This document shows, piece after piece, positions 20,216 through 59,286 of a stretch of DNA of 64,000 nucleotides. Every line of letters begins with the position of its first letter. Within the stretch, counting starts at the first letter, position 1. Source of the stretch: Candidatus Krumholzibacteriota bacterium (GTDB lineage: Bacteria; Krumholzibacteriota; Krumholzibacteriia; Krumholzibacteriales; Krumholzibacteriaceae); assembly GCA_016932415.1 (NCBI GenBank), contig JAFGCX010000029.1:1-64000 (forward strand), given 5' to 3'. Both the position numbers and the translations under genes were made by a program. The notes under the pieces were generated by a model. It did no database searches, was not told where the DNA came from, and saw only the letters and a program-made list of their open reading frames with translations.

Positions 20216-20569
20216 TTTATCCGCCTTTGAATGATCGAACAGCTATTTACCGACAGGGGCGACAAATGGTCCTGCCTTTCGCCCGCCGCAGTTACTGAAT
20301 ATATATCAGAACAAAAATCTTTCTGATAGGAACTATTTTCCCTTCGACCGTGAAATTCTTATTCGGGAGACAGGAATCTATTTACCCTGATCAACGCCGG
20401 AGGCATCGGGCGCTGATCGGGGCAGGGCGTAACAACTACTAAAACAACATGATAAGATTAATTGCAAAGATATGGCCTGCCCTCTCTTTAATAGAAGGTA
20501 ATATGGCACATCTCTTGTTGTCATTCAATCTGTGACTTGTCGTTATAAACAGAGAACCCGGGGAGAATA
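20216..20569. other. Divergent intergenic region (354 bases)
   Basis: No gene is seen. It separates the phosphodiesterase (leftward) from the methyltransferase (rightward). The right third is AT-rich and carries a near-consensus sigma-54 site at 20504-20519, annotated separately. No convincing terminator or riboswitch was recognised. Confidence 0.6.
20504..20519 (+). promoter_or_regulatory. Near-consensus sigma-54 site before the methyltransferase gene
   Basis: TGGCACATCTCTTGTT matches the sigma-54 consensus TGGCAC-N5-TTGC except that the -12 GC is GT. It lies 50 bases ahead of the ATG at 20570, a normal distance. The window has four exact sigma-54 sites in front of flagellar operons, so this site would tie the methyltransferase and glycosyltransferase genes to flagellar control. 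The altered -12 could make it weak. Confidence 0.4.
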
Positions 20570-21631: not shown

Positions 21632-21690
21632 AAAGGAAACAGTAACCTGCAATGTGTCCTGGCGGGGCGTTGGCAGTGAAAGGTATATCG

Positions 21691-23571
21691 ATGTCAGGAA
21701 AAAACAGTAACGAAATCATAATAGACCTTGAATCGATAAGGAACCGGAAGAAAGCGGTCATCTCATGCTGCATGATAACGAGGGATGAGGGAGAATTCAT
21801 AGAGAATGCTATTGAAAGCGTAAAGGGACTTGCCGATGAGATCATAATCGTCGATACGGGATCGGTCGATGATACTGCCAGAAAGGCAGAAAGACTCGGA
21901 GCACGTGTATTTACATGCGAATGGCGGAATGATTTCAGCGAGGCGAGAAACAGAGCGATCAGTAAGGCTTCGGGCGAGTGGATATTGATCCTTGACGCCG
22001 ACGAGATCATTGAGGAAAAGGATCATTCGAGGATCGCCAGGTTGATCCGCCAATATCCCGAAGCGGCTTTCATGTTTGAGCAGTGGACATATACGAACGA
22101 CTCGGACACTTTCGGCTGGAAGCGCTGTGACGATGACGCCAGGATGAACAGGGAGATGCTGGGGTATTTTCAAAGCCAGCAGGTAAGGCTGTTCAGGAAC
22201 ACGGAGCTGGTAAGGTATGAAGGTCAGGTACATGAGGACGTGGAGAGATCTCTCGCGAGCACCGGGATCCCGATCATCAAGGTCGAGGATATTATCATCC
22301 ACCATTATGGCAGGATGAAGGATTCCGAGAGGATGAACAGAAAACACAGGATGTATCTTTCCCTCGGAGAGAAGAAGCTCGGAGCCAACCCGGGAAATTC
22401 CAAATATATATTCGAACTTGCTTCACAGATGCTCGGACTCGGAAACGCCGAAGAATCTCTTCATCTGATCGACAAGGGCCTTGATATCGTTCCGGAGAGC
22501 TGGGAGTTCCTCAATCTGAAAGGCCTGGCTTTTCTGCGCCAGGGCAGGATCGATGAGGCTGTCGATTCCTTTTCCAGGGCGGTCCTGATCAATAGCGAAA
22601 AACCCGATCTGTATAACAATCTCGGAGTGGCTTATAACGAGAACAGGCAGCCGGAAGAAGCTTTGAAAGCGATGAAGAAGGGTTTGTCGATCGATCCTAG
22701 GAACGCCAATATTCTACGAAACCTTGCGACCTCTTCGATCATGGTCGATGATCTCGACTCAGCCCTTGAATATATTACCAGTTCCCTCGAGCTGGATCCA
22801 TTCATGGCGCAGTCTCATGTGATCCATGCCGATATTCTGTTCAGACAGGGCAATCAGGAGGACTCGGTCGAATCGCTTGAAAAGATCAGGTTTCTTCCCG
22901 GCACCGATCTGAAAGTCTACCTGAAATCGATATATATATACACACGGATGAAGATGGCTGAAAAAGCAGGCGAGGTGGTCGAGAGAGCTTTGTCGGAATA
23001 TCCCGGTCATGAAGGTCTGACATTTCTTTCGGGAAAAGTCTTTGAGCTGAAGGGGGAGATCGATGAGGCCTTGAAAGTCTATGAATCGATCATATCGATG
23101 AATCCGTATAATTCCGAAGTACTCAATTCGCTCGGTTGCCTCAATGAAAAACAGGGGAGACTGGAAAGGGCCAGAGAATATTTTACCGAAGCATACCGGT
23201 TGTCCCCGTATAACATGCAGATCGAAGTGAATCTGGGGATCATCCTGGGTAAACTCGGCATAGATGCCGAAGCGGAGAGGCATTTAAAAGCGGTGATCAA
23301 AAAGGACGGTCAAAACGGCGCGGCACTCAATGCCTTTGGATGTTTTCTCTCTAAACGCGACAGGTATGCCGAGGCAATAGCATTCTTTACGCGGGCGATC
23401 GAGAATAACCGGCAGGATATTCATCCCTACCTTAATCTCGGGCTCGTCTGTGAAAAGATGAATAAACCTGACAAGGCAGTAGAGATATATGAAAAACTCG
23501 CCATCATCGATCCATCATCGAGGAGGCTCGTGGAGTTCCGTCTAAGAAAACTCCAGAGCGCCTTTTCCTAG
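21691..23571 (+). CDS. Family 2 glycosyltransferase with C-terminal TPR array
   Basis: About 626 residues from the ATG at 21691 (AAAGG seven bases upstream); an ATG at 21652 would add 13 residues. The GT-A domain comprises CCMITRDEGEF, EIIIVDTGSVDDT and the metal-binding WILILDADEI (about residue 100). From about residue 235 to the end there are roughly ten tetratricopeptide repeats (for example LNLKGLAFLRQGRIDEAVDSF and YNNLGVAYNENRQPEEALKAM). Such proteins transfer a sugar onto proteins or envelope glycans, and the TPRs probably recognise the acceptor. Position beside the flagellar locus suggests, but does not prove, flagellin as acceptor. Confidence 0.87.
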   Translation: MSGKNSNEIIIDLESIRNRKKAVISCCMITRDEGEFIENAIESVKGLADEIIIVDTGSVDDTARKAERLGARVFTCEWRNDFSEARNRAISKASGEWILILDADEIIEEKDHSRIARLIRQYPEAAFMFEQWTYTNDSDTFGWKRCDDDARMNREMLGYFQSQQVRLFRNTELVRYEGQVHEDVERSLASTGIPIIKVEDIIIHHYGRMKDSERMNRKHRMYLSLGEKKLGANPGNSKYIFELASQMLGLGNAEESLHLIDKGLDIVPESWEFLNLKGLAFLRQGRIDEAVDSFSRAVLINSEKPDLYNNLGVAYNENRQPEEALKAMKKGLSIDPRNANILRNLATSSIMVDDLDSALEYITSSLELDPFMAQSHVIHADILFRQGNQEDSVESLEKIRFLPGTDLKVYLKSIYIYTRMKMAEKAGEVVERALSEYPGHEGLTFLSGKVFELKGEIDEALKVYESIISMNPYNSEVLNSLGCLNEKQGRLERAREYFTEAYRLSPYNMQIEVNLGIILGKLGIDAEAERHLKAVIKKDGQNGAALNAFGCFLSKRDRYAEAIAFFTRAIENNRQDIHPYLNLGLVCEKMNKPDKAVEIYEKLAIIDPSSRRLVEFRLRKLQSAFS

Positions 23572-29617: not shown

Positions 29618-30082
29618 ATGAAGATACAGATGAATCCGCAGATCAGACCGGTTCAGGCAGAGTCATCCGGCGCCGCGCGTACGAAAAGCCTGGAAAAAGC
29701 AGCCCGGGATTTTGAATCGATACTGATCGGACAGTTTTTTCAACTGATGCATTCTACCGTGTCGGATGAGGGAATGGTGGAGAAATCGTTCCCGAGAAAG
29801 ATCTACGAAGAGATGATGCAGGGCGAATTTGCCAGCGAATTCACGAAGCGGGGAGGTTTTGGCCTTTCCGAAGTCCTTGTGGACAGGTTCAATCGCGGCC
29901 AGGGTGGTGAGGCGGCGACTGTTCCGGGAGCGTTACCGGGAAATACCGGGCGAGAGGCCCTTCCACTTGGAAAGAAAGATCGCTTTATGAAGATTGGATC
30001 TGAAAATGATCAAAATACGAATAGCAGGATGATTTCATTGAATGAAATCTACAAAGGCCAGAAAGCCGTTGATAGAAAGTGA
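29618..30082 (+). CDS. flgJ: Rod-binding protein FlgJ, N-terminal domain only
   Basis: 154 residues. The rod-binding domain is visible as ARDFESILIGQFFQLMHSTV, then KIYEEMMQGEFASEFTKRGGFGLSEVL. The C-terminal muramidase (glucosaminidase) domain of E. coli FlgJ (313 residues) is missing, as in many other phyla. A separate lytic enzyme must open the peptidoglycan. The ATG follows AAAAGGA. Its 3' end is close to the flgN start. Confidence 0.9.
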   Translation: MKIQMNPQIRPVQAESSGAARTKSLEKAARDFESILIGQFFQLMHSTVSDEGMVEKSFPRKIYEEMMQGEFASEFTKRGGFGLSEVLVDRFNRGQGGEAATVPGALPGNTGREALPLGKKDRFMKIGSENDQNTNSRMISLNEIYKGQKAVDRK

Positions 30083-30093
30083 GGCGAGGAAAG

Positions 30094-30627
30094 ATGGCCG
30101 TAAGGATCTTGGGAAGCAAGGATATTGAAGACAGGGTCGAGGAACTCTGCGAGATGATGAACGAAGAGGCGTCGGTCTGCAGGGAGCTTCTTGAACTCTC
30201 CCGGATCGAACAGGAATACCTGATGAAGAACGATATCGAAAATCTGTCGGTGAATACCGAGAAGATGAAAAGGATCGTGCAGGTACTCAAGAGAAATCAG
30301 GCCGCGAGACATTCCTATATGGACGACATCGCCATCAATCTGGAAAAAGATGTCGGGACAGTGACGATCAGCGCGATCAGCAGGGAAGTCGATCCGGAGC
30401 TTTCGTCAAAACTCAAAGACACGAGCCGTGAACTGATCAAGGTCGGTGAAAGGCTCTATCGATCAAATCACAACACTATCTATCTTATCGATTTTTCGCT
30501 CGATCTCCTCGAACAGCAGAACAAACTCTGGGCAGAACTTGTGTCGGATGAGAAGGAAGGATATTCGGCGAACGGTAAGAAGGGTAACAGGAAAAGTCAT
30601 CCATTGCTTGTAGAGGAAAAAGTATAA
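30094..30627 (+). CDS. flgN: FlgN-type export chaperone
   Basis: About 177 residues from the ATG at 30094 (GAGGA upstream); a GTG 15 bases earlier overlaps flgJ. The protein is all helical and coiled-coil: EELCEMMNEEASVCRELLELSRIEQEYLMKNDIENL resembles the FlgN N-terminus, and the C-terminal helix (LIDFSLDLLEQQNKLW) would bind cargo. FlgN escorts FlgK and FlgL to the export gate, and those two genes follow directly. The assignment rests on fold pattern and position. Confidence 0.82.
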   Translation: MAVRILGSKDIEDRVEELCEMMNEEASVCRELLELSRIEQEYLMKNDIENLSVNTEKMKRIVQVLKRNQAARHSYMDDIAINLEKDVGTVTISAISREVDPELSSKLKDTSRELIKVGERLYRSNHNTIYLIDFSLDLLEQQNKLWAELVSDEKEGYSANGKKGNRKSHPLLVEEKV

Positions 30628-42034: not shown

Positions 42035-42050
42035 TGGCACATTCGTTGCG
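42035..42050 (+). promoter_or_regulatory. Sigma-54 promoter of the flgB operon
   Basis: TGGCACATTCGTTGCG is a full consensus sigma-54 site, with GG at 42036-42037 and GC at 42048-42049 ten bases apart. Transcription would start near 42061, ahead of the TTG at 42087. Confidence 0.9.
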
Positions 42051-42086: not shown

Positions 42087-43052
42087 TTGAAGATCACGGT
42101 CATCATAACACTTTCTCTGCTGCTGCTGCCCAGGGCGTCGCGTTCCGACGCCGCCGTTGAGCCGCTAGCCGCTCTCGTGACAAAGGCGTCGGAGTACTAT
42201 TTCAAAAGCAGCAGCGGTGAAGAGAGATCAACCCTCCTGAACGATTTTGACAGGTCGTGTCAGGCGCTCGATTCGCTTATGGGAATATATATGCCGCTCG
42301 ACACTGTCAGCGGAACGCCGGGAGACGAGAGGGTCTGCCGGATAGCGCAGTGCTACACTGTGATCGGAATGTACGAAAATGCCCGGGACTGGTGGAAAGT
42401 CCTCCGGAGAAACGACGATGAAGGGATATTCAGGATGGAAAACAACAGGGGACTGCTCCAGACCGGGATAGAACTGGCCGACACTTCGCTGATAATACAG
42501 CTACTTGCCGAAGTCGAACTCTGGGATTCCGAGACGAAGAAGAATGCCGCCGCCGAGCTCCTCTCGGCGATAGAGCTTCTCTATATGCGCGGAACCGATA
42601 TCAGGTGGCTTCACAGGCGTTTTACGAGAGTGGCGAGGTTTCTCGATCCCCGGCAATCGGAGATACTGAGGATCAGGCTTCTGATCCGAAAAGGAGAGTA
42701 TAACGAGGCTTACGAAGTCTGCTCAACGCTGGTCGAAAGATTTGTGACTACGGACTGGAAAGCTGAAGATGCCAAGTATCTGCTCGAACTCTTCTTTTCA
42801 TCTTCCGTCCTGCAAGGCAGATACGAGGACGCAGAGGATATCCTGGAGAAGATAAGGATCTATGGATGCGGCCAGCTTACGGAGAGGGCCAGAGCCTGGG
42901 AACCGTCTATATCGATGCTGAAAAATGACAGGGATAAGGCGCAAGAACAATATTCGCAGATATGTCTCGATGACCCGTCATCTGCCGGATCGTGTTTCTG
43001 GAAAGATTTTTTCGTCCGTTACAAGGAGATTCTATCAGATGATCGAAGATGA
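42087..43052 (+). CDS. Exported TPR-like protein heading the flgB operon, unknown function
   Basis: 321 residues, TTG start behind GAAAGG. A signal peptide (VIITLSLLLLPRASRS, cut near SRS/DA) predicts export to the periplasm. The mature part is all helical, with TPR-like pairs (VCRIAQCYTVIGMYENARDWWKV, and LRIRLLIRKGEYNEAYEVCSTL, and QGRYEDAEDILEKI). I recognise no named family. It is the first gene of a sigma-54 flagellar operon and overlaps the next gene by 14 bases, so a role in the motor is likely. Periplasmic TPR proteins of other bacteria (PflA, FlcA) scaffold stators; this may be an analogue. Confidence 0.7.
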   Translation: MKITVIITLSLLLLPRASRSDAAVEPLAALVTKASEYYFKSSSGEERSTLLNDFDRSCQALDSLMGIYMPLDTVSGTPGDERVCRIAQCYTVIGMYENARDWWKVLRRNDDEGIFRMENNRGLLQTGIELADTSLIIQLLAEVELWDSETKKNAAAELLSAIELLYMRGTDIRWLHRRFTRVARFLDPRQSEILRIRLLIRKGEYNEAYEVCSTLVERFVTTDWKAEDAKYLLELFFSSSVLQGRYEDAEDILEKIRIYGCGQLTERARAWEPSISMLKNDRDKAQEQYSQICLDDPSSAGSCFWKDFFVRYKEILSDDRR

Positions 43053-43452
43053 AAGATTGCTCAGCAGCTATAAGAAGGAAAAAGAACACTACCTGACGAT
43101 ACTCGATCTGGCCGGAGATCTCAGGGAAGCTCTTAAAGAAGGCCATGACATGCCTGAGATAATCTCCATTCTCAGACGCAAGAACAGGATCATGGAAGAG
43201 ATCGATTCTATCGAGAATGCCATAGAGGACGAGAAAAAGGGATATCTTTCATCGACCAGGAGCTCGGCCGATATGGCCGAGATCATCGACGAACTCTCAT
43301 CGCTCGTCGAGAAGATCCTCTCGGTCGAGAGAGAGAACGAGATCCTTTTCAGCTCCCAGGGGTGCAGGTCGGCGGTCAATTACGGCGCGGGAGTATCGGC
43401 AGAATACGCCTGCAGAAGGTACAGCGGGATATTATCAGGAGAACAGTCATGA
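43039..43452 (+). CDS. Small coiled-coil flagellar operon protein, unknown function
   Basis: 137 residues from the ATG at 43039 (AAGGAG ten bases upstream, inside the previous gene). It is strongly helical and charged (LREALKEGHDMPEIISILRRKNRIMEEIDSIENAI), with a short Gly/Ala/Tyr-rich tail. The pattern recalls FlgN/FliT-type export chaperones, but no motif is decisive. It sits between the TPR-like gene and flgB with overlaps on both sides (four bases with flgB). Confidence 0.6.
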   Translation: MIEDERLLSSYKKEKEHYLTILDLAGDLREALKEGHDMPEIISILRRKNRIMEEIDSIENAIEDEKKGYLSSTRSSADMAEIIDELSSLVEKILSVERENEILFSSQGCRSAVNYGAGVSAEYACRRYSGILSGEQS

Positions 43453-43862
43453 TAAGTAAGAATATTCTTCCAAGGACGGGACTTGCTGATTTCAGGAGAG
43501 CCCTCGACGCCTATTCCGTGAGGCAGAGGGTCATCGCGGAAAATATCGCCAACGTCCAGACGCCCGGATTCAGGGCGAAAAAAGTACTCTTCGAGGAGAA
43601 TCTCAACAGCGCCGTATCGCGCAGATTGAAGATGACCCCGGTTCGCGAGCCGGAAGGCTCGATCCCGATCCCGGTGGCGGGGAGAAGTCAGGTAGAGGTG
43701 AGGAATACAGACTCGGGATATTTCAACGGGACGAATGACGTAAATATGGAGAACGAGATGACGGAGATCGCCAAGAATACTCTGGCGTACAAGATGGTGG
43801 CGAAAATGACTAAAAGCACGATCGATATGCTGCGATCGGCTATAGCCGGAAAAACGAGATAG
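43449..43862 (+). CDS. flgB: Flagellar rod protein FlgB
   Basis: 137 residues from the ATG at 43449, overlapping the preceding stop (ATGA). The rod motif VIAENIANVQTPGFRAKKVLFEENL and C-terminal NVNMENEMTEIAKNTLAYKMVAKMTKSTIDMLRSAI are standard. It forms the most proximal rod layer next to FliE. Confidence 0.95.
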   Translation: MISKNILPRTGLADFRRALDAYSVRQRVIAENIANVQTPGFRAKKVLFEENLNSAVSRRLKMTPVREPEGSIPIPVAGRSQVEVRNTDSGYFNGTNDVNMENEMTEIAKNTLAYKMVAKMTKSTIDMLRSAIAGKTR

Positions 43863-43886: not shown

Positions 43887-44378
43887 ATGATCGGAACAGG
43901 AATATTCAGGACTTTGAGCATTAGCTCGGCGGGGTTGTCGGTACAAAGGATGAGGCTCGATGTCATCGCCGAGAACCTGGCCAACGTCGAGACGACGAGA
44001 ACGGAAGAGGGCGGTCCGTACAGGCGCAAAGAGGTCACGATAACGGCTGTGAAGGATAAGCCGGCCGGAGGAAGCCTCGCTGCTGGAAATTTTAATGATA
44101 TTTTCGCCCGCAGGATCGGGATCGAAATCGATCAGAGGTCTTCAGCGAATGCGTCGCGCAGGCCCGAGGGTGAGATCACCAGGGACGAGACGACTCCGCT
44201 GACTCTGAAATACGATCCCGGCCATCCCGACGCCGACGAGAAAGGGATCGTATCGATGCCGAACGTCAACGTCATCGATGAAATGGTCGACATGATCACG
44301 GCGACCAGGGCTTATGAAGCGAACGTGACCGCTATCCAGGCGGCAAAGGATATGTTCAATAACGCTATTGATATATAA
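43887..44378 (+). CDS. flgC: Flagellar rod protein FlgC
   Basis: 163 residues. N-terminal SSAGLSVQRMRLDVIAENLANVETTRTEEGGPYRRKEV and C-terminal NVNVIDEMVDMITATRAYEANVTAIQAAKDMF match FlgC closely. AGGAGG lies ahead of the ATG. Proximal rod component, in the usual order after flgB. Confidence 0.96.
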   Translation: MIGTGIFRTLSISSAGLSVQRMRLDVIAENLANVETTRTEEGGPYRRKEVTITAVKDKPAGGSLAAGNFNDIFARRIGIEIDQRSSANASRRPEGEITRDETTPLTLKYDPGHPDADEKGIVSMPNVNVIDEMVDMITATRAYEANVTAIQAAKDMFNNAIDI

Positions 44379-44400: not shown

Positions 44401-44688
44401 ATGAAAATCAGACCGGTAGACAATCCCCTGATCCGCAGGACCTATCAACAGGAGGCACCGAGGCAGAGCGGAGGATTTGACAGGATACTGAAGACCATGG
44501 TGAGCGAAACCGACATGCTTCAAACAAGGAGCGCTTCGATGTCGAACGCGGCGATATCCGGGCAGCCTGTCGAAGCTCATAGCGTAATGATAGCCGGAGA
44601 GGAAGCGAGGATCGCTTTCGATCTTATGATCGCCGTAAGGAACAAATTGATCGATGCCTACAGGGAACTCATGCAGATGAGGATGTAA
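44401..44688 (+). CDS. fliE: Hook-basal body protein FliE
   Basis: 95 residues, the usual size. The C-terminal half VEAHSVMIAGEEARIAFDLMIAVRNKLIDAYRELMQMRM is the FliE signature. It joins the MS ring (FliF) to the rod and lies between flgC and fliF as in most bacteria. Confidence 0.94.
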   Translation: MKIRPVDNPLIRRTYQQEAPRQSGGFDRILKTMVSETDMLQTRSASMSNAAISGQPVEAHSVMIAGEEARIAFDLMIAVRNKLIDAYRELMQMRM

Positions 44689-44755
44689 CTGGCGCTCCGG
44701 CGAGAGATATTGGCAAGTGGATGACGACAGGTTCGTCGACAAGAGGGAGAGAAAA

Positions 44756-46237
44756 TTGGCAGGAATGGATGAGACACTGGGAAGACTGCAGGGAGCCTGG
44801 GACAGTTTCGGCTTCAGTCAGAAGATCATCGTTTCGGGCATTGTCCTGGCGGTGGTAGTGAGTCTGATAGTCTTTTCCATCTGGATAAGAGAGCCGGGGT
44901 ACTCGGTGCTTTTCACCGAACTCGACCTGACAAGCGCGGGAGAAGTGACGCAGGAACTCGAACAGAGAGGCGTCGAATACAAGGTCACGCGCGGTGGGAC
45001 CACGGTCCTCGTCGCGGCCGATAATGTCGCTGAACTTCGAGTAAGCCTTGCCTCTTCCGGGATCATGCCGGCCGATCTTCCAGGGATGGAGCTCTTCGAC
45101 GAGCAGGAACTCGGCGTTACCGATTTCGTTCAGAATATTAATCTAAAGAGGGCGCTTGAAGGAGAGCTTTCCAAGACGATAGGGGGGCTGACCGTTGTCG
45201 ACAAGGCGAGGGTGCACCTCGTCTTTCCAAAAGAGAGCATATTCAAGGACAAGGGCAGGGAGGCGACAGCCTCGGTGGTTGTAAGATTGAAGCGGGCCCA
45301 GAAACTTAGCAAATCGCAGATCCTCGGGATAACAAATCTCGTCGCGAACAGCGTCGAGGGTCTTCACGCCGGAAAGATCACGATCATAGACCAGTCGGGC
45401 AATATCCTTTCGAGCTCCGCTGACGACAGCGGAGCGGGGATGATAAATTCCCAGATAGAGGTAAAAAGGACTATAGAGAGCTACCTGGCCGGCAAGGCCG
45501 AAGAGATGCTCGAAACTGTCCTCGGTTCCGGGAAAGCGGTCGTCAGGGTCAACGCGAAGCTCGATTTCAGGGCGATCGAGACGACCCGCGAGGTATTCGA
45601 TCCGCAGACGGTGGTGAGAAGCGAGAACTCCTCGGAAGAAAGCAACACCGTCGACGGATCGAGGAGTGAGAATTCGACGACGAATTACGATATAAACAGG
45701 ACCGTCGAGACGATCGGCAACAGCGGCGGAGGGATAGACCATCTGACCGTGGCTGTGACGGTGGACGGCCATTACGCAGAGGGAGAGGGAGGCCAGAGAG
45801 GCGAGTATATACCTCTTACCGAGGATGAACTGAACGAACTCGAGGGAATCGTCAAGGGAGCGGTGGGGTTCGACGAAACGAGGAACGACGTGATCAATAT
45901 CGTCAACCTGCAGTTTCATTCGGGCGATTACCCGGCGACCTCTTTCGAGACGCCACTGGTTGAATGGCTTCCCGGGCTGGTAGGCAAGCTCGCGGTCATG
46001 GCGATCCTCGTATTCCTGTTTCTTCTCTTCAGAAAGCATGTAGGGCAGCTTTTCACGCAGAGCAATGGGTTCAGCCCGTTCAGGGCCGGACCGGTGGTAC
46101 GGGGAGGAGCGGGATCGGGCGCGATGGTCCCTCCGATGTCGAATGAAGCCTCCCTGGAAGAGAGGACGAGAGATATTTCAGGTAATGATCCCGAGCAGGT
46201 CGCCAAGCTGGTTCAGACCTGGATGGCTGAAGACTAA
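44756..46237 (+). CDS. fliF: Flagellar MS-ring protein FliF
   Basis: About 493 residues. The TTG at 44756 is preferred because GGGAG lies six bases upstream; a GTG at 44717 and an ATG at 44765 are alternatives. A first membrane helix (IVLAVVVSLIVFSIWI) is followed by the YscJ-like ring-building motif (LFTELDLTSAGEVTQELEQRGVEYKV, ELFDEQELGVTDFVQNINLKRALEGEL). A periplasmic domain and a second helix (LAVMAILVFLFLLF) come next. The cytoplasmic tail ends DPEQVAKLVQTWMAED, which binds FliG. Confidence 0.95.
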   Translation: MAGMDETLGRLQGAWDSFGFSQKIIVSGIVLAVVVSLIVFSIWIREPGYSVLFTELDLTSAGEVTQELEQRGVEYKVTRGGTTVLVAADNVAELRVSLASSGIMPADLPGMELFDEQELGVTDFVQNINLKRALEGELSKTIGGLTVVDKARVHLVFPKESIFKDKGREATASVVVRLKRAQKLSKSQILGITNLVANSVEGLHAGKITIIDQSGNILSSSADDSGAGMINSQIEVKRTIESYLAGKAEEMLETVLGSGKAVVRVNAKLDFRAIETTREVFDPQTVVRSENSSEESNTVDGSRSENSTTNYDINRTVETIGNSGGGIDHLTVAVTVDGHYAEGEGGQRGEYIPLTEDELNELEGIVKGAVGFDETRNDVINIVNLQFHSGDYPATSFETPLVEWLPGLVGKLAVMAILVFLFLLFRKHVGQLFTQSNGFSPFRAGPVVRGGAGSGAMVPPMSNEASLEERTRDISGNDPEQVAKLVQTWMAED

Positions 46238-49725: not shown

Positions 49726-49985
49726 CATGCCACAAAAAAAGAGGAAATAATCGTCCCGCCCCGGGGGTAAAAATTTCCTCAGGACCGCCAGAACGGCCTA
49801 TCAATATCTTATCGGCAGAAGATCCCCGCGACTTTAACTATTTTTAAAATAATCCGGTTACATCAATCGATATTCAGCGGTATCTATAACAGCCCCGTGG
49901 CATATCACTTGCGGTCATTCTCACCTGAAAGATTGTATAAAGAAGCTCCGGAAAGCCGGAGATATATCTCATCATCGAGGTAAAA
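49726..49985. other. Intergenic region with inverted repeat and promoter
   Basis: An eight-base inverted repeat GAGGAAAT (49741-49748) and ATTTCCTC (49773-49780) encloses a 24-base loop containing CCCCGGGGG. It may be the fliJ terminator or a regulatory stem; no T-run follows. The right side holds the sigma-54 promoter of motE. No gene is seen. Confidence 0.5.
49898..49913 (+). promoter_or_regulatory. Sigma-54 promoter of the motE-fliK-flgE operon
   Basis: TGGCATATCACTTGCG has GG at 49899-49900 and GC at 49911-49912 ten bases apart, and TTGC at -12. Transcription would begin near 49924, about 60 bases before the ATG at 49986. Confidence 0.87.
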
Positions 49986-50513
49986 ATGAAAGACATAATC
50001 GCAATATCAGCCCTCAGCTTCGTTCTGATCTCGATGGGCGCACTCTATTCGATGGGATTTCTAAAATTCGCTCCCAACCCGATCGAAGCGGAAATAGTCA
50101 CCGAATCGGAAAAAGTGTCGATCGCCAAGACTCAACTTGAAGCGCTTGAAGCACAGAAAATCAACATGGAGAGGGAAAAGGCGAAGATACTCTCTCTTCA
50201 GAATGACCTGGAGATGGAGAAGAGGATCATCGTGGAGATGAGAAACGAGCTTCAGGATTACCTTTCCAGGATAGAGACAGCATATGGAAAACTCGATGAA
50301 AGCGATCAGGAGAAGATCACCAGGCTGGCCAAGCTCTACGATTCGATGAAAGCGGAAAGTGCCGCGCCGATAGCGGCGGCGCTGAAACTCGATCTTCTCG
50401 AGAAGATCATAACGAACATGAAGGATAAAAAAGCGGCAAAACTCATGGCGGCGCTCCCTCCGTCGATCTCTGCCGAGATCAGCCGGAGGATGGGAAAGAA
50501 TACGACGATATGA
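49986..50513 (+). CDS. MotE-like flagellar membrane protein
   Basis: 175 residues. An N-terminal membrane helix (IIAISALSFVLISMGALYSM) is followed by a long periplasmic coiled coil (about 40-115) and a C-terminal domain with KAAKLMAALPPSISAEISRRM, the MgtE-N-like end typical of MotE/FliJ-neighbouring proteins. MotE acts as a periplasmic chaperone or partner of motility proteins in rhizobia. It heads this sigma-54 operon and overlaps fliK by four bases. Confidence 0.8.
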   Translation: MKDIIAISALSFVLISMGALYSMGFLKFAPNPIEAEIVTESEKVSIAKTQLEALEAQKINMEREKAKILSLQNDLEMEKRIIVEMRNELQDYLSRIETAYGKLDESDQEKITRLAKLYDSMKAESAAPIAAALKLDLLEKIITNMKDKKAAKLMAALPPSISAEISRRMGKNTTI

Positions 50514-59011: not shown

Positions 59012-59286
59012 ATATTTTACCGCGGCCGCCGGGGTCCTTCCCGGCCGCCCCACCGGCCGGGAGACAGATCGGGAATCAATTGCCAGAAACCGGTGATAAA
59101 CCTATCATAACACCTTTAAAAAAATAACGATATGGAACCGGGAAATATCTGCCCGAATTCGCGCACTATTTTCCTCCTTTCCTCCGTGGCATATCTATTG
59201 CCCTCTTTTAATGGAAACCATTTCCCACTCGGGATGCTCCGTCATCGTATTTTCCGGCGGACGCATCGATCAGAAAGAGGCGCGAA
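59012..59286. other. Intergenic region with hairpin and promoter
   Basis: A perfect eight-base-pair hairpin, CCCGGCCG (59040-59047) with CGGCCGGG (59054-59061), lies after fliO but lacks a T-run. Next is an AT-rich tract, then the sigma-54 promoter of fliP. No gene is seen; an open frame in the overlapping +1 register is rejected. Confidence 0.55.
59187..59202 (+). promoter_or_regulatory. Sigma-54 promoter of the fliP operon
   Basis: TGGCATATCTATTGCC has GG at 59188-59189 and GC at 59200-59201 ten bases apart. Transcription would begin near 59213, about 75 bases before the TTG of fliP. Confidence 0.87.

Follow-up and report, generated by a model that had tools for sequence, protein, structure and literature searches.

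X, the gene considered here, is an open reading frame on the forward strand of the analysed window, a stretch of 64,000 nucleotides from a Candidatus Krumholzibacteriota bacterium. It is found together with the following features.

42035..42049, + strand: sigma-54 (-24/-12) promoter core TGGCACATTCGTTGC, upstream of X, 0 mismatches
42087..43052, + strand: X, predicted exported TPR-like protein; ORF with TTG start, 321 aa (family profile, AlphaFold2, Pfam)
43039..43452, + strand: FlgN-like coiled-coil gene, the second FlgN-like gene of the window (sub-cut-off match to PF05130, E 1.4e-5)
43449..43862, + strand: flgB, with its ATG (43449) overlapping the FlgN-like stop codon (ORF, sequence, conserved order)
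43887..44378, + strand: flgC (ORF, conserved order)
44401..44688, + strand: fliE (ORF, conserved order)
44717..46237, + strand: fliF, MS-ring (PF08345 above cut-off)

The promoter core, TGGCAC-N5-TTGC, is located 38-52 bases ahead of the X start and is the only sigma-54 site with 0 mismatches within the window. In all 33 loci compared, an equivalent site (at least 12/15) is found between -41 and -86 relative to the inferred X start; among random 200-nt windows drawn from these loci, 12% contain one. The consensus promoter claimed in an earlier sequence-only reading of this DNA is therefore well founded, and its 14-base overlap of X with the next gene is borne out by the FlgN-like ATG at 43039. 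The same reading had placed X at the head of flgB-flgC-fliE-fliF. X does head the operon, but the FlgN-like gene intervenes. It should be mentioned that sigma-54-like sites with 1 mismatch are also present at 59187-59201, just ahead of fliP, and at 20504-20518, ahead of a methyltransferase gene (20570).

A survey of the genome context of X homologues, as that reading had proposed, shows the same flagellar slot in 33 loci, with a FlgN-like gene directly 3' of X in each of them. Since these loci are related, the counts are not independent events. In f1 and f2, the window's own family and the next family of its taxonomic order, the genes run flgM - X - FlgN-like - flgB - flgC - fliE - fliF. Most loci of the sister families have flgM - kinase - NtrC - X - FlgN-like - kinase - NtrC - flgB, in which two pairs of kinase/NtrC-type regulators flank X and the FlgN-like gene. 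This arrangement could suggest a checkpoint or sensor role for a secreted X, which would keep the adjoining sigma-54 regulators informed of basal-body assembly. However, the neighbouring kinases at locus L041 seem to be cytoplasmic, visual inspection showing no periplasmic sensor, and f1 and f2 keep X although the regulators are not beside it; we consider such a role highly improbable.

The canonical FlgN gene of the window is at 30079-30627, between flgJ and flgK, and the divergent FlgN-like gene next to X may encode a different chaperone. At one locus (L014:1097-1604) the FlgN-like gene is in two frames, reflecting either an assembly frameshift or a broken gene. A Glycosyltransferase-2 + TPR protein (21652-23571, 639 aa) near the flagellar cluster of the window is a candidate for flagellin glycosylation.

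Predicted export and fold of X

The following segments were assigned within X.

42087..42152, + strand: signal-peptide-like segment MKITVIITLSLLLLPRASRSDA, residues 1 to about 22, hydrophobic after a basic N-terminus
42312..43043, + strand: helical-hairpin (TPR-like) body, residues 76-319, from the AlphaFold2 model
42963..42995, + strand: cysteine pair C293 and C303, in the last two helices, from conservation over 33 members

Both the signal peptide and the all-helical TPR-like body had been proposed from the sequence, and the predictions agree with both. Based on hydropathy, X and all 33 members have an export-type N-terminus, in which a basic start is followed by a hydrophobic segment. The AlphaFold2 model of X is all-helical without strands (mean pLDDT 82.7), as is the model of a relative with 15% identity (pLDDT 77.3), and the closest PDB fold matches of both models are consensus TPR proteins. 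The strongest column conservation among the 33 members falls within residues 87-110, where A87-Y90-A99-W102/103-D110 follows TPR spacing.

C293 and C303 are both present in 29 of the 33 members and both missing in the same four. Such joint gain or loss is a disulphide pattern, which points to an oxidising compartment, and the pair probably forms a disulphide between the last two helices.

X was said to belong to no nameable family, and this still holds. Nothing matches it above the curated cut-offs of Pfam or NCBIfam, including any enzyme or other named family, and searches of PDB sequences returned nothing credible or only generic helical-repeat/TPR matches; no link to an unrelated enzyme family was found in these three collections. 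The Pfam TPR models themselves match X only below their curated cut-off, with a best single E of 0.0014.

Distribution and inheritance of the X family

Searching the genome contigs collection with the single X sequence found no relatives; an alignment found four, with titles of Krumholzibacteriota (two), Latescibacteria (one) and an unclassified bacterium (one). A six-row profile located relatives in 7 of the 25 genomes of the order, exactly the seven that encode FliF. With a seven-sequence profile, weak matches were obtained in 11 genomes of other families. All of them fall within flagellar clusters, at the position that precedes the FlgN-like gene and flgB; in two (L038, L039) the contig stops short of flgB. 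Second-tier profile matches (E >1e-7) lay mostly within large ORFs with TPRs and were classed as generic TPR.

With an 18-sequence profile, and a strong match defined as E<=1e-10, X is present in 47 of 80 Krumholzibacteriota genomes and FliF in 50, with both in 46. The five mismatched genomes were explained on reading. X is present in G046 on direct reading; in G055 the contig carrying X, flgB and flgC stops short of fliF; and in G043, G057 and G059 the contigs end before the X slot. Every flagellar locus that is readable through the slot accordingly has X. Outside the phylum, none of about 307 genomes (116 with FliF; 387 genomes searched in total) has a strong match, in a search that scored few candidates per genome and could miss rare distant members.

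The tree distances of X correlate with those of FliF, FlgC and FlgB at r 0.86-0.92, compared to a permutation maximum of about 0.5 (0.51). X evolves two to nearly three times faster than these proteins. The parallel distances indicate that X has been inherited with the motor. X is a real, well-conserved flagellar gene family, restricted to Krumholzibacteriota in the sample searched.

These distributions also bear on whether X could be a common periplasmic TPR protein with a housekeeping role, of the YbgF/CpoB, PilF or LapB type, that came to reside in a flagellar operon by chance. Its sequence and fold matches are those of a generic TPR protein, and TIGR02795 (YbgF) matches X with an E of 0.058. 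However, strong X homologues are confined to flagellar loci, contrary to a distribution mostly outside them, and do not occur in those members of the same family that lack flagella; the position of X and its promoter are fixed in 33 loci. A chance placement is the least probable of the explanations and is very hard to credit.

X compared with known periplasmic TPR scaffolds

The window also encodes a candidate for the ring to which periplasmic TPR scaffolds attach in other bacteria.

49898..49912, + strand: sigma-54-like site upstream of the FlgY/MotE-like gene, 1 mismatch
49986..50513, + strand: probable FlgY/MotE E-ring protein, between fliJ and fliK (sub-cut-off PF03448 and FliG_M; gene position)

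A single protein, FlgY/MotE/FlbB, makes up the E-ring. It is recognised from its MgtE_N-type C-terminal end, its long helix and the location of its gene beside fliJ and fliK, and its partners are the periplasmic TPR proteins PflA, MotC/MotK and FlcB (PMC13023049). The 49986-50513 product has an N-terminal hydrophobic helix, a long helix and a C-terminal MgtE_N-like domain. It matches PF03448 (E 1.5e-4) and FliG_M (E 0.005), both below cut-off, and has a weak match to FlbB (E 0.031). By these sequence features and its gene position, it is probably the FlgY/MotE protein of this motor.

The sequence-only reading had suggested an undescribed motor accessory of the PflA/FlcA kind. The flagellar association of X, its predicted periplasmic TPR nature and the FlgY/MotE-type gene in the cluster agree with this kind; no sequence match to PflA, PflB or FlcA was found, and X has no AMIN domain. 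Like PflA, the proximal disk spoke of Campylobacter and Helicobacter, X is predicted to be an exported TPR superhelix, is linked to flagella and is found in a FlgY-encoding genome. The model of the X relative, submitted to Foldseek, also has a weak fold match to chain 9hmf_K of the Campylobacter motor scaffold, which we infer to be PflA from its fitting chain length (12th, E 0.007), and another to chain 9hmf_L (42nd, E 0.013). Both matches sit among generic TPR proteins, and are therefore consistent with a scaffold without discriminating for one. In contrast to X, PflA has an N-terminal AMIN-like beta-sandwich and a PflB-binding loop, and 16-17 TPRs where X has about 7 hairpins, with no detectable sequence homology between the two. 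The AMIN/beta-sandwich is missing from X by both the lack of a Pfam AMIN match and the strandless model. The transmembrane anchor and central antiparallel beta pair of PflB are missing as well, as judged from the signal-like N-terminus and the same model. Profile searches of PDB chain sequences, among which the presence of 9hmf is unconfirmed, gave no homology of X to PflA or PflB, and a search of NCBIfam, for which the presence of collar models is unconfirmed, gave no match to FlcA or FlcB.

MotC of Sinorhizobium and MotK of Cereibacter resemble X in being periplasmic and mainly TPR, and they work with MotE, the FlgY homologue. Unlike that of X, which lies near flgB, their genes lie beside motB or motA/motE, and MotK has an AMIN domain. 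The FlcA/FlcB collar of Borrelia is likewise of the periplasmic TPR type and is built on FlbB, another FlgY homologue; X differs in being found outside spirochaetes. The analogy of X to PflA, FlcA and MotC in its manner of working is well supported as one of kind, and not as identity with PflA by sequence or domains.

Feng et al. applied a TPR profile, requiring at least 3 motifs, to 1,365 flagellated species; in about 52% of these they found TPR proteins close to flagellar clusters, which they put forward as possible homologues of PflA (PMC11870540). The X genome and family show the other marks of this class: X lies within five genes of the flagellar cluster, a FlgY homologue is encoded at 49986-50513 (with PF03448 below cut-off), and the models of two family members have a TPR-type superhelical fold. 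With all Pfam matches below cut-off, X lacks three TPR motifs by profile and would probably fail the profile test of Feng et al. Krumholzibacteriota are not mentioned in the text of that paper, and no paper on Krumholzibacteriota flagellar motors was found in the literature searched. "Undescribed" is consequently true of the X family but too broad for its kind, since flagella-linked periplasmic TPR proteins have already been surveyed across phyla (PMC11870540). X is a known general kind of flagellar protein in a new short, cryptic and phylum-specific form, for which we infer a location at the motor, FlgY binding and stator scaffolding as the mechanism.

Given its occurrence in the same flagellar slot in every flagellated genome of the phylum whose contig extends that far, X is very probably a phylum-specific counterpart of the periplasmic scaffolds that brace the motors of Campylobacter, Borrelia and Sinorhizobium. 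In the simplest reading by analogy, X would be the TPR partner of the E-ring of the window, forming part of a spoke or collar and helping to place the stators. Transcription by sigma-54 RNA polymerase would couple the production of X to that of the FlgN-like protein, the proximal-rod proteins FlgB, FlgC and FliE, and FliF of the MS-ring. X would then be exported to the periplasm, fold into a short TPR superhelix locked by the C-terminal disulphide, and assemble around the MS-ring, where it would most likely bind the FlgY/MotE E-ring and position or brace the stator units. PflA with FlgY, FlcB with FlbB, and MotC/MotK with MotE serve as the models for this action. We assign a probability of about 0.62 to X being a secreted, Krumholzibacteriota-specific periplasmic TPR scaffold at the MS-ring that binds FlgY/MotE and positions stators.

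One feature of the locus counts against a motor scaffold, namely that X adjoins the rod and MS-ring genes, not motA/motB or flgY. Because of this arrangement, there is a real alternative in which X would serve the rod or MS-ring stage from the periplasm, as a chaperone or assembly factor and not as a lasting structural part of the motor, comparable to FlgA for the P-ring, or a helper for the rod in crossing the cell wall. X shares its operon with a FlgN-like gene and flgB-flgC-fliE-fliF, away from the stator genes; TPR proteins are common chaperones, and MotE was formerly read as a chaperone of MotC (PMC10954123). Nevertheless, the experimentally studied flagellar periplasmic TPR proteins in the literature examined are scaffold, spoke, collar or stator-linked proteins, and Pfam-type domain searches found no catalytic or peptidoglycan-binding domain in X. 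We regard a transient assembly role as unlikely, and the stator-positioning scaffold is preferred.

The slot ahead of flgB in other phyla

Comparable loci were found in outgroup genomes. At five of them, an exported or membrane-anchored TPR protein is encoded upstream of flgB and, like X, beside regulator genes. L085:5914-8223 (769 aa) and L086:5331-7565 (744 aa) encode membrane-anchored TPR proteins in another phylum, in the order TPR - FlgN-like - kinase - NtrC - flgB, which the window's sister families share. L110:5606-8281, L111:8338-11037 and L113:8236-10344, from three further outgroup genomes, encode exported TPR proteins (702-899 aa), and kinase - NtrC - flgB lie downstream of them, with a PilZ protein between at L111. 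The TPR gene of L110 has a 14/15 sigma-54-like site at -38. Unlike X, the outgroup proteins are 702-899 aa overall and have strong TPR motifs, and their profile similarity to X is at generic level only (E 2.4e-7 at best). The recurrence of TPR proteins in a comparable slot across phyla supports a conserved functional slot, though not sequence homology.

Extending this further, TPR - FlgN-like - kinase - NtrC - flgB might be an ancient block of flagellar genes, in which the TPR protein would be a core motor part, present in Krumholzibacteriota as a specific E-ring-linked spoke and possibly also serving as an assembly checkpoint for the sigma-54 regulators. The weakness of its TPRs, which lie under the thresholds of detection, would explain why it was missed. 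This extension is speculative and quite unlikely. At three other loci (L079, L081, L082) the regulator pair is upstream of flgB, with no TPR protein seen there.

The claim that the motor of the last bacterial common ancestor had an E-ring and spokes rests on profile-based TPR counts. X represents a whole phylum whose likely spoke protein escapes the profile cut-offs and yet stands out clearly from its promoter and its place in the operon. As a practical rule, such proteins can be looked for in other phyla in the conserved slot ahead of a FlgN-like gene and flgB.

An exported 540 aa protein at L103:5657-7279 was considered as a MotK-type AMIN protein and rejected, as it is actually an AMIN + Amidase_3 amidase. 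This cell-wall amidase is encoded two genes before flgB and is perhaps for rod penetration.
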